50,902 bases of DNA from an uncultured Mycoplasmatota bacterium (GTDB lineage: Bacteria; Bacillota_I; Bacilli_A; RF39; UBA660). The notes beneath the pieces are model-generated. The model did no database searches and was not told where the DNA came from. It saw nothing but the letters and a program-made list of their open reading frames with translations. The stretch spans positions 1 to 50,902 of the forward strand of contig CANSFI010000011.1 in the NCBI GenBank assembly GCA_947646095.1, written 5' to 3'. Positions 4,679 to 44,024 of the stretch are shown piece after piece (position 1 is the stretch's first letter; each line of letters begins with the position of its first letter). The translations under genes and the position numbers were made by a program.

Positions 4679-4690
4679 GAACATTTGTTC
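4679..4690. promoter_or_regulatory. LexA/DinR-type SOS box upstream of recA
   Basis: GAACATTTGTTC, matching GAAC-N4-GTTC, ~65 bp upstream of the recA start. Confidence 0.75.
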
Positions 4691-5857: not shown

Positions 5858-6217
5858 AATAATATTTTATAAGCCATGTTCTGTACCTAATATAATAGGC
5901 GACAAACATTTATCTATTGCTTTTAAAGCAATCCCATAAAAGATTCTGATTCTCTTTTACTAGGTTCCCCTACCAAAATTTGGGTTTCTCACTCGTGGGG
6001 TTTACCGCGTTCCATACTATTTATTTCTAAATAGATCGTCTCTATGGCACTTTATGCCTATAACCATATCATATGACTTAGGTTAATTGGCGCCGTTAGT
6101 TAAAAACTACTACAGGTTATTTTTTCCCTGTACACGAACACTAAAGTCATCACAGACTTTGTGAGCATGGACTTTCCTCTACATTATTATAAATGCAGCG
6201 TTTGTCAAAATATTATT
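5858..6217 (-). ncRNA. rnpB: RNase P RNA, B-type
   Basis: Minus strand contains GAGGAAAGTCCATGCTCAC, AAACCCAAATTTTGGTAGGGGAACC and ACAGAACATGGCTTATAA; P1 helix AATAATATTTT/AAAATATTATT and P2 GACAAAC/GTTTGTC close it. Adjacent to gpsB. Confidence 0.97.
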
Positions 6218-36385: not shown

Positions 36386-36414
36386 CAAAAACTGATAAAT
36401 TAATATCAGTTTTT
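36386..36414 (-). terminator. Terminator after pseudopilin-like gene
   Basis: Minus strand AAAACTGATATTAATTTATCAGTTTTT. Confidence 0.6.
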
Positions 36415-39400
36415 ATTTTTTAGGTACTTTAATTACTGGTCTAATACCACCCTTCGAAGGTGCAGTTGTAAAATCAAGACGTCCAGTATAATACATAACT
36501 AATGCATTTTGATTGCCTTCCATTGAAGCACTAGCAGATAACCAATAATATCTTTGTGATGAATCCAAATTATCATATAAATATGTTGAACAACTATTTG
36601 AACTCTTTGTACATCCTAATGTATTTGCCTCTGCATAAGTTAACATTCTTGCTCTGACATTTGTCCTTTTAATTGGTTGATATAATATTTTTCCCTGATA
36701 TGGATCTGCTTCATCGACTAATGTATAATCATATGCTTTTATATTGGTCCAATTACTCGTTCTACTTTCTAATTCTTTTAAAGCTGTCCTTGGTCCTACA
36801 TCTGCATAATAATGATTACTATCCCAATTTGTTCCACCAGCTTCCACATAATCTGGATACACGATCCAGTAAACATCTTGATTTCCTAGATTTCTATCCA
36901 TTATTAATTTTAATTCACTTCCTGTATCATTTATTACATAGAAATTATAATTTTCACTACTATTTACCTGAACATTAACTAATGTTCCATTTGAACATGT
37001 ACCAGTATTTATACAGTTATTTTGCGATTTCAATATACCATTTGCGTATCCTGAAACTTTAACTGTTACTTCTTTTGTTATATTAGATCCATCTGTAGTA
37101 GTTGCTTTTATCTTTGTAGTTCCAGCTTTTACTCCAGTTATTACTCCATTAGATACTGTTGCTATAGTAGTGTTATCACTAGTCCATTTAAGTGTTTTAT
37201 TGTAAGCAGTAGAAGGTGATACTGTTGCTGTTATATTTATTGTATCAGTTGGATATAATTCTACACTTGTTTTATCTAGTGAAATTGATGTTACAGATTG
37301 CCTTACTGTTGCTGAATATATTTTACTTGCTGCATTATTGTTTGTAGAAGAGGCTACATTTACTGTTATAGTAGATGTTCCACTTGCTACTCCATTTACT
37401 GTTACTGTTGTTCCACTTATAGAACAGGTTGCTACTGAAGTATTACTACTTGTACAACTTAATGTTCCTGTTGAATTACTTGCTGTAAATGTTATAGATT
37501 TTCCTGTATATACTATTCCTGATGTTGCTGATAAACTTACACTTCCATTTGCTTTATTAATTACAATATTTTTACTTCCTGTTACTGTTTTATATCCTTC
37601 TTTGGTTACTTGATAATATACTGTATATGTTCCTGTATTAGTGTATGTTGGACTACTTGTTAAATTATATGTTCCTTCACTTGTTCCATATTTTATTGTT
37701 GCTCCACTACTTGTGACAATTATTCCATGGGATGCTCCATCATATGTTCCTGTATAACCGTTTGCTGTTACACTTAAGATACCTTGTTCAGTAGTTGCTA
37801 CATAAGATGCTTGAGCTTCTTTATAATTTGTTGTAGCTGTTGATTTAATTGTTAGTGTTGCTGAGCCTTCTTTTGTTTTTGGTGTTACTGTTACTGTTGT
37901 TCCACTTATAGAACAAGTTGCTACACTTTCATCACTACTTGTACAACTTAATGTTCCTCCACTTTTATTTTCTGTTATTTTAAATGTTCCACTAGTTGGA
38001 TATGTATAACTTCCACTTGTTTCTGATAAAGTTACTTTTCCATCTGCTTTAGAAATTGTTACTGTTTTATTTCCCTTTATTGTTTTATATCCTTCTTTTG
38101 TTATTTGATAATATACTGTATATGTTCCAGCATTAGTGTATGTTGGACTACTATCTAAATTATATGTTCCTTCTACTGTTCCATATTTGATAGTCGCTCC
38201 ACTACTTAATACACTTATTCCATGTGATGAACCATCATATACTCCTGTATATCCATTCGCTGTTACACTTAATAGGCCTTGAGTAGTCATTGCTACATAT
38301 GATACTTGAGCTTCTTTATAATTGTTATTTCCTTGTGAGGTTATGGTTAATATAGCTGAGCCTTCTTTAGTTCCTGGGGTTACTGTTACTGTATTATTAT
38401 TTATTGAACAGGTTGCTACACTATTATCACTACTTGTACAATTTAATGTTCCATTACTTTTATTTTCTGTTATAGTAAATGTTCCACTTGTTGGATATGT
38501 ATAGTTCCCACTTGTCTCTGATAATATTATATTTCCTTCCGCCTTAGTAATTATAACATCCTTACTTGATGTAACTGTTTTATATCCTTCTTTACTTACT
38601 TGATAATATACTGTATATGTTCCTACATCTGCATATGTTGGACTTTCATTTAAATCATATGTTCCTGTTTTAGTTCCATATTTAATTGTTGTTCCTTCAC
38701 TTACTACTGTTATTCCATGAGGTTGTCCATCATATACTCCTTCATATCCATTCGCTGTTACACTAAATAAACTTTCTGCTGTAATTACTACATGTGAAGC
38801 TGTTGCTTCTGTATAACTACTTGTTTCAGAAGATTTTATTATAAGTGTTGTTGTTCCTTCTTTATTTTTTGGTGTTACTGTTACTATATTCCCACTTATT
38901 GAACATTCTGCTATAGTCTCATCACTTGATTTACAACTTAAGCTTCCTCCACTTATATTTTCTACTACTTCAAATGTTCCATTATTTGGATATTTATAAT
39001 TCCCACTATTACTTGATAGTTTGATGCTTCCTTGTTTTTTTATATTATCTTTATTACAACCACTAGTCTCTGCTTTTGCTTTACTATTTTGATAATTTAC
39101 TGTGTAATTATTTACACAGAATGTTCCACTTTCTACATTTCCATTTTTTAATGTATATAATCCTCCTGTTGGCGATGATCCCTTCATTTCTACTTTTATA
39201 TCATCTAAGGTATAATCATTTCCATCTTTATATACTTTATTTTCTAAATTTGATAAGGCTATTTCATTTTCTACTGCTTTTATATAATTATAGGTCGAAT
39301 CTTCTGCAGCTCCTTTTCTCACCTTTTCTATTATATTCATAATGACTGGTACTGTAATCAAAGCTATGATGGCAAGTATTATTATAACTGCTAAAAGTTC

Positions 39401-39427
39401 TATTAATGTAAATCCTTTTTTCTTCAT
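36413..39427 (-). CDS. Large surface protein: type IV pilin-like N-terminus, tandem Ig-like (MBG-type) repeats, Big_2 domain
   Basis: KKKGFTLIELLAVIIILAIIALITVPVIM prepilin signature; three 165-aa repeats; SVTSISLDKTSVELYPTDTINITATVSPSTAYNKTLKWTSDNTTIATV Big_2-like. Confidence 0.85.
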   Translation of the reverse strand: MKKKGFTLIELLAVIIILAIIALITVPVIMNIIEKVRKGAAEDSTYNYIKAVENEIALSNLENKVYKDGNDYTLDDIKVEMKGSSPTGGLYTLKNGNVESGTFCVNNYTVNYQNSKAKAETSGCNKDNIKKQGSIKLSSNSGNYKYPNNGTFEVVENISGGSLSCKSSDETIAECSISGNIVTVTPKNKEGTTTLIIKSSETSSYTEATASHVVITAESLFSVTANGYEGVYDGQPHGITVVSEGTTIKYGTKTGTYDLNESPTYADVGTYTVYYQVSKEGYKTVTSSKDVIITKAEGNIILSETSGNYTYPTSGTFTITENKSNGTLNCTSSDNSVATCSINNNTVTVTPGTKEGSAILTITSQGNNNYKEAQVSYVAMTTQGLLSVTANGYTGVYDGSSHGISVLSSGATIKYGTVEGTYNLDSSPTYTNAGTYTVYYQITKEGYKTIKGNKTVTISKADGKVTLSETSGSYTYPTSGTFKITENKSGGTLSCTSSDESVATCSISGTTVTVTPKTKEGSATLTIKSTATTNYKEAQASYVATTEQGILSVTANGYTGTYDGASHGIIVTSSGATIKYGTSEGTYNLTSSPTYTNTGTYTVYYQVTKEGYKTVTGSKNIVINKANGSVSLSATSGIVYTGKSITFTASNSTGTLSCTSSNTSVATCSISGTTVTVNGVASGTSTITVNVASSTNNNAASKIYSATVRQSVTSISLDKTSVELYPTDTINITATVSPSTAYNKTLKWTSDNTTIATVSNGVITGVKAGTTKIKATTTDGSNITKEVTVKVSGYANGILKSQNNCINTGTCSNGTLVNVQVNSSENYNFYVINDTGSELKLIMDRNLGNQDVYWIVYPDYVEAGGTNWDSNHYYADVGPRTALKELESRTSNWTNIKAYDYTLVDEADPYQGKILYQPIKRTNVRARMLTYAEANTLGCTKSSNSCSTYLYDNLDSSQRYYWLSASASMEGNQNALVMYYTGRLDFTTAPSKGGIRPVIKVPKK
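37547..39031 (-). repeat. Three tandem 495-bp (165-aa) coding repeats
   Basis: Units begin QGSIKL (aa 133), EGNIIL (298), DGKVTL (463); a fourth partial unit begins NGSVSL (628). Confidence 0.9.
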
Positions 39428-42471: not shown

Positions 42472-43570
42472 TCAACCTTTCATTAAATAATCATTTATAA
42501 ATATATCTATATCACCATCTAATACTTTTACTACATTACTTGTTTCTGTATTAGTTCTATGATCTTTTACCATTGAATATGGATGCATAATATAACTTCT
42601 TATTTGTGAGCCAAAATTAATATCAGAGTTTTCTCCTTTAATTTTTTTCATTTCTTGTTCTCTTTTTTCTAATTCTAATTGATATAGTTTATTTTTTAAA
42701 ACTTCCATTGCTTTTTCTTTGTTTTGTATTTGACTTCTTTCATTTTGACAAGTAACTACTATTTTAGTTGGAATATGGGTAATTCTAACTGCACTATCAG
42801 TAGTATTAACTCCTTGTCCACCACAACCACTAGATCTATATACATCAATTCTTAAGTCATTTTCATTTATTTCGACATTTACTTTATTATTATCAAATAA
42901 AGGACTAATATTAACTGATGCAAATGATGTATGTCTTCTATTATTAGAATCAAAAGGTGATAATCTAATTAATCTATGAACTCCTTTTTCACTTTTTAAA
43001 TATCCATAAGCATTAGTCCCTTTAACTAAAATTGTAACACTTTTTATTCCAGCTTCTTCTCCTGGTTGTTCATCAATTATTTCATATTTATAATTTTTAT
43101 GTTCAAAATATCTTTGATACATTCTATATAACATAAAAGCCCAATCACATGCTTCTGTTCCTCCTGCTCCTGAATGTATTTCGATTATAGCATTTTCATG
43201 ATCATATGGACCATTTAATAAAACAGTAACTTTTATTTCTTTATATTTTTCTTTTATTTCTTCTAATTCATTTTGAATTAATTCTTTTAAATTATCATCA
43301 TTTTCTTCTTTTAACATATCAATTAATTCTATATTAGAAATTATTTTATTTTTTAATTCAGATACAGTTAAAATGGTATTTTTTAAATCATTAAGTTCAT
43401 TTATCGTTTTTTCACTTTCTTTTTTATTATCCCAAAAATTAGGGTTATTCATTAAGTCTTCTAGTTCTTTAATACGTTCATTTTTTATATCTGGTTCAAA
43501 GTGACCTCCATAAATCATTTATTTTGTTTAAAGATTCATTATATGTATTATATAACTCTGTTAATTCCAT
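42472..43570 (-). CDS. prfB: Peptide chain release factor 2, expressed through a programmed +1 frameshift
   Basis: SPF motif RLSPFDSNNRRHTS, GCGGQGVNTTDSAVR; true start ATG at 43570, MELTELYNTYNESLNKINDLWRSL then in-frame TGA at 43498-43496 within GGAGGTCACTTTGA, shift into EPDIKNERI. Confidence 0.96.
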
Positions 43571-43665
43571 ATCATCACCATAATTAATTATATCATTTTT
43601 TTTTATTTTTTCCTAATGAATTTTATGGTAATAATTTTTTACATTATTCCAAAACAAAAAAAGCA

Positions 43666-43677
43666 GAACGAATGTTC
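43666..43677. promoter_or_regulatory. LexA/DinR-type SOS box upstream of small unannotated transcription unit
   Basis: GAACGAATGTTC (GAAC-N4-GTTC), followed by CTTAAAAAT as at the recA box. Confidence 0.6.
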
Positions 43678-43709
43678 TTAAAAATATTCAGATTATATTA
43701 GATTAATAG

Positions 43710-43958
43710 TATAATGTTTATGAATACATTTGAAATATCAGATGTTTTATCTTTCTTAGAAAAGAAAGGTGGTGGTTTTATGACAAAAAGAGAAAAAGTC
43801 TTTTTATCATAATCCTACTATTTTTTTAATTATATTTAAGCAATTATTTATATAAAAAATAAAAAGAACACCTGATTTCAACATAAGTTGATTTCAGATG
43901 CGTATCCAATTAAGGGATTACATCTGATTCAGAGAGTCAAACGTATCCTTTTTTATTT
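43710..43958 (+). other. Unannotated short transcription unit: -10 TATAAT, SD, tiny (frameshifted) ORF, structured 3' region
   Basis: TATAAT at 43710-43715; GAAAGGTGGTGGTTTTATG with ATG at 43780; ORF MTKREKVFLS*, neighbouring frames continue hydrophobic; terminator GGATTAC...GTATCCTTTTTT. Confidence 0.45.
43914..43957 (+). terminator. Terminator of the small unit
   Basis: GGATTAC-ATCTGATTCAGAGAGTCAAAC-GTATCCTTTTTT with inner CTGA/TCAG pairing. Confidence 0.5.
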
Positions 43959-44024
43959 TATGAAAAATCTCTCATCTATATACATGATATCGTTAATTTA
44001 ATTTTTTAGCAAGTAAAAATGTGA

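Follow-up and report, generated by a model that had tools for sequence, protein, structure and literature searches.

In the txpA/RatA and bsrG/SR4 systems of B. subtilis, the mRNA of a hydrophobic peptide is overlapped at its 3' end by a convergent antisense RNA. The toxin mRNA of hok/sok is closed 5' to 3' and metastable, and in Fst/RNAII (par) convergent genes have a terminator-like hairpin region in common. The yonT/SR6 pair of B. subtilis follows the same scheme, SR6 being a convergent antisense RNA that overlaps the mRNA of a hydrophobic peptide at the 3' end (PMC5848175). In E. coli, tisB/istR-1 and dinQ/agrB encode LexA-controlled hydrophobic inner-membrane peptides of 27-29 aa, which are checked by antisense RNA (PMC8309996). 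Among open papers, the reviews that list SOS-inducible type I toxins name those of E. coli alone (dinQ, tisB, symE; PMC6563280, PMC8309996).

Within the window, i.e. the whole stretch of 50,902 nucleotides analysed, positions 43710-43992 make up one copy of a dispersed type I toxin-antitoxin-like unit. This is very probably a degenerate copy of a multi-copy, SOS-linked, antisense-controlled type I toxin-antitoxin family, whose toxicity, transcription and LexA binding are predicted from sequence. The family looks like a previously uncatalogued one of uncultured gut Bacilli, TisB-like in plan and unrelated in sequence. Like tisB/istR-1 and dinQ/agrB, it would join a LexA-linked hydrophobic peptide gene to an antisense RNA; unlike tisB and dinQ, to which no sequence relation is recognisable, it has LexA boxes of the Bacilli type, and its predicted antisense RNA starts at a promoter facing that of the mRNA and overlaps the 3' end of the latter. 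This antisense arrangement is that of txpA/RatA, bsrG/SR4 and yonT/SR6, from which (Hol_Tox and related) the family differs in its shorter peptides, its LexA boxes and its many chromosomal copies with no phage or plasmid record match. As in hok/sok the mRNA appears to be closed 5' to 3' and metastable, but the peptide is unrelated and the antisense RNA would target the 3' region. The convergent layout with its shared terminator-like hairpin region recalls Fst/RNAII, whereas neither an Fst_toxin match nor a plasmid match was found for the family. The features of the window copy are the following.

43666-43677, plus strand: LexA-like box GAACGAATGTTC, at about -56 relative to the predicted RNA start
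43687-43715, plus strand: sense promoter TTCAGA-17-TATAAT, with the -10 TATAAT at 43710-43715
43722-43957, plus strand: predicted toxin-type mRNA of about 236 nt, placed by the -10 position, the conserved 5' end and the U-tract
43722-43733, plus strand: closing helix P1, 5' arm
43737-43745, plus strand: helix P2, 5' arm
43766-43775, plus strand: strong Shine-Dalgarno AAGGTGGTGG
43780-43812, plus strand: disrupted toxin ORF MTKREKVFLS*, ATG 43780, 10 codons
43869-43900, plus strand: hairpin P4, which read on the minus strand is the antisense RNA's intrinsic terminator, followed there by TTTTTATTTTTT
43915-43957, plus strand: sense terminator hairpin and U-tract, arms also able to pair with the P1/P2 5' arms
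43920-43928, plus strand: helix P2, 3' arm
43937-43948, plus strand: closing helix P1, 3' arm
43852-43977, minus strand: predicted antisense antitoxin RNA of about 125 nt, with complementarity to the 3' region of the toxin mRNA
43984-44012, minus strand: antisense (antitoxin RNA) promoter TTGCTA-17-TATCAT, extended -10 TG lost in the window copy

The dyad, TATAAT, Shine-Dalgarno, ORF at ATG 43780, 3' structure and U-tract described in an earlier note on this DNA are all present. A 30 aa reading from an upstream in-frame ATG near 43720 was rejected, as it depends on a base unique to the window copy, directly after the -10 and not conserved. The window locus is a degenerate copy: its RNA parts are kept, its peptide frame is broken, and its LexA-like box is weak and misplaced relative to that of relatives (about -26). 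With frame and box in this state, toxin is probably not produced from the window copy, though antisense RNA may still be. An error of assembly might account for the broken ORF.

Homology, which begins at the -10 of the sense promoter, gives the strongest proof of a real feature. A paralogue in the same genome (73% identity) shares the stretch between -10 and terminator, and relatives have it at about 35 other sites, partly as tandem copies. The search of related genomes for the SD-ORF-3'UTR block that the earlier note had proposed was run and found dispersed homologues with an intact hydrophobic ORF; 26 full copies from 11 genomes form the aligned set. At least 4 of these 26 are broken (window, L040, L041, L057).

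Intact relatives encode peptides of 24-31 aa with a charged start followed by a hydrophobic helix. Intact copies have MTKRE-FSQFIIILLLFFIVITLLFK-like peptides, and further subfamilies (24-31 aa) have MTKKD, MSKKD/MNKKD, MKKKD, MKTKT and MRKKDE peptides. The basic-then-hydrophobic peptide that had been postulated for this locus is seen intact in these relatives and frameshifted in the window. Among 30 distinct MTKRE-group ORFs, pN/pS is 0.355 in frame vs 0.69 and 1.65 when the frame is shifted, and the codon-position entropies (0.62, 0.28 and 0.77) mark the second position as most conserved; the peptide frame is under purifying selection. The peptides have no convincing match in Pfam, NCBIfam, PHROGs or PADLOC and none in PDB. 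They do not match the family models of Hol_Tox (PF16935, TxpA/BsrG), which has no hit over cut-off in the window's genome either, or of Fst/Ldr (PF13955). Weak single-helix Pfam and SecE matches, far below cut-offs, were discarded as noise.

A convergent antisense RNA overlapping the mRNA 3' end is predicted from the opposite strand, where essentially all 26 copies carry, in the same register, TTGNNA, 17 bases and TATNAT, usually with an extended -10 TG. In 84 independent GTDB loci, selected on the transcript core alone, the promoter TTGNNA-17-TGNTATNAT is conserved in 86%, scoring 10 or more out of 13; at the same threshold the controls give 1.2% (upstream) and 0.5% (shuffled). A terminator of its own, formed by hairpin P4 and the T-run behind it, ends the predicted antisense RNA just past the toxin ORF. 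The 3' region is where the earlier note had suggested looking for such an RNA; promoter and terminator had both escaped it. Pairing of the window antisense RNA with its own mRNA reaches -174.7 kcal/mol, and with the paralogue mRNA -96.6 kcal/mol (shuffles about -35), so that partial action on the paralogue is conceivable. The two marks of a type I system, a hydrophobic peptide under coding selection and an overlapping antisense RNA gene, thus both appear to be present, and with the homologues they support, at sequence level, the type I toxin-like locus proposed earlier.

The same parts could instead belong to a non-toxic, SOS-controlled regulatory small membrane peptide, its dose tuned by the antisense RNA. 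The toxicity of the peptides is a prediction, there are many copies per genome, and small membrane peptides can act as regulators. This reading is nevertheless considered unlikely, as a short hydrophobic peptide, a tightly folded mRNA, a constitutive-looking antisense RNA and ORF decay (4/26) together form the usual type I toxin pattern.

The window transcript folds at -57.3 kcal/mol (z = -5.6), and 0/200 shuffles fold as well. Unguided RNAalifold pairs the 5' end of the mRNA with the terminator region through P1 and P2, and also finds hairpin P4. In the closing helix and hairpins 96.2% of cells are paired, slid controls reaching at most 39%, and double changes occur in 14/35 pairs vs 7.9 in shuffles, i.e. 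there is covariation. A local terminator hairpin with the same 3' arm is also kept (91.1%); since hairpin and 5'-3' pairing share this arm and both are kept, the data fit an mRNA that may switch between the terminator hairpin and an end-to-end closed form, the hairpin coming first. A rival pairing, of the 5' arm with hairpin P4, was rejected, for 89.6% of cells are paired yet covariation is no better than in shuffles.

The 5'-3' mRNA pairing put forward in the earlier note therefore holds in the form of conserved helices joining the 5' end to the 3' terminator region. Its particular version, in which CACCT pairs with the Shine-Dalgarno, is not a family feature: CACCT is present in the window and is not conserved, relatives having CATCT there. 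Folding for sequestration, also suggested in that note, shows the window Shine-Dalgarno strongly paired (unpaired probability 0.02), but the claim does not extend to the family, whose mean unpaired probability is 0.19 vs 0.23 in shuffles. Truncation folds removing either mRNA end did not release the Shine-Dalgarno. With accessibility hardly below shuffles and no release on truncation, a hok-like activation step is unsupported. Rfam contains no family matching at gathering score.

Dispersed, tandem and intergenic copies whose ends carry an inverted repeat are also what a MITE-type small mobile repeat would leave; the 12-bp GGATACATTTGA/TCAAATGTATCC ends would then be terminal inverted repeats, and the copies would have spread by transposition. 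Conservation, however, exceeds the repeat, taking in the -10 and LexA box upstream and about 60 nt of antisense promoter downstream; covariation extends to the inner helices P2 and P4; the ORF shows coding selection; and the flanks, on inspection, have no target-site duplication. A MITE is accordingly regarded as improbable, more so than the non-toxic regulator.

For the type I family, distribution was followed with a covariance model of the 3' half of the unit, which in the window matches the antisense RNA region at 43864-43992. The window's genome holds eight good matches, several of them to diverged subfamilies; besides the window copy and its 73%-identical paralogue it has about 6 diverged copies. 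In the same taxonomic family 279/388 genomes and 120/152 genera have a match, and in other families of the class about 1 of some 258 genomes. The single good match beyond the family (G553:C32:11733-11856, f5) possibly reflects horizontal transfer or contamination. Exact searching with the antisense core returned at least 112 stretches, all from uncultured Bacilli, Tenericutes or other MAGs, and none in viral contigs; the whole unit has no match in phage or plasmid records. Origin of the unit from a phage, plasmid or virus was rejected for want of matches in those records. Tandem units occur at L188, L210, L190, L200, L195 and G021:C15, sometimes with peptide subfamilies mixed side by side, and a diverged copy, L140 (G000:C1:60683-60806), directly adjoins tRNA-like sequence.

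Gene neighbours vary between copies and none is fixed. A cis-regulatory leader or terminator of prfB/topA in place of an independent unit, as the position in the topA-prfB gap and a minus-strand hairpin that by inspection would also terminate topA transcripts might indicate, is excluded almost entirely because copies adjoin pheT-like, thymidylate synthase-like, alcohol dehydrogenase-like, conjugation-like and many other unrelated genes (ORFs named by inspection), and prfB, with its gene start at 43570, has an ordinary programmed frameshift of its own. Conservation that tracked prfB leader function only, which the earlier note had named as a possible refutation, was checked and ruled out by the dispersed copies.

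The SOS link began from GAAC-N4-GTTC, which has 2 sites in the window (recA and the toxin locus) vs 0.2 expected by chance. Genome-wide the perfect dyad has 6 sites vs 5 for a backwards-pattern control; being no commoner than the control, the box alone is weak evidence and needs independent support. lexA is present in all f1 genomes searched, and f1 lexA promoters carry boxes such as RAACAAATGTTTGA. With a PWM built from lexA-promoter boxes alone (box threshold at least 8, random background 1.45%), lexA boxes score 12.2-22.4, and the LexA box of the recA promoter (4679-4690) scores 17.7 with the PWM from relatives' lexA promoters. Boxes scoring at least 8 occur in 13/26 toxin promoters. The best box lies at about -26, between -35 and -10, in 12/26 (scores 8.7-17.9, one at 6.4), and in a second set a score of 8 or more is reached at -25 to -27 in 24/68. 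About half of the copies are without a LexA box. The window box, scoring 8.1 at -56, neither overlaps the core promoter nor scores like the lexA and recA boxes; because of this position and a score below the lowest lexA box (12.2), SOS control of the window copy is doubtful. The SOS control first suspected here is thus well supported in many family members, and weakly so in the copy in which it was noticed.

Intact copies would transcribe, from a promoter over which a LexA box often lies, an mRNA of about 240 nt that encodes a single-helix membrane peptide of 24-31 aa and folds end to end, 5' arm with terminator region. An antisense RNA of about 125 nt, from the extended -10 promoter just downstream, would pair with the mRNA 3' region and may block the mRNA or trigger its decay. 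By analogy with TisB, DNA damage would inactivate LexA, the mRNA would come to exceed the antisense RNA, and the peptide would depolarise the membrane.

A broader reading, given even chances, is of a large superfamily, as yet without a name, of type I systems under LexA control in uncultured gut Bacilli. It would comprise at least 6 peptide subfamilies built on one antisense-RNA core, often with at least 8 loci per genome. SOS control would have arisen in it separately from E. coli TisB/DinQ, and a trigger like that of TisB would be combined with a closed mRNA as in hok and a 3' antisense RNA of the B. subtilis kind. Broken copies, that of the window among them, may persist as antitoxin-only loci acting on paralogues. 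If true, SOS-triggered membrane toxins would have an independent origin, and type I systems would be extended within a poorly studied gut lineage. Hundreds of natural variants are at hand for testing co-evolution of antisense RNA and mRNA folding.

Additional observations can be made within the window. The part of prfB at 43496-43570 (minus strand, start 43570) contains the usual programmed frameshift TGG AGG TCA CTT TGA; in the ORF list the gene is represented by its downstream part alone. A bacterial RNase P class B RNA lies at 5865-6213 (minus strand). Positions 36413-39427 (minus strand) encode a protein of 1004 aa with, judged by eye, a pilin-like start and Ig-like repeats.
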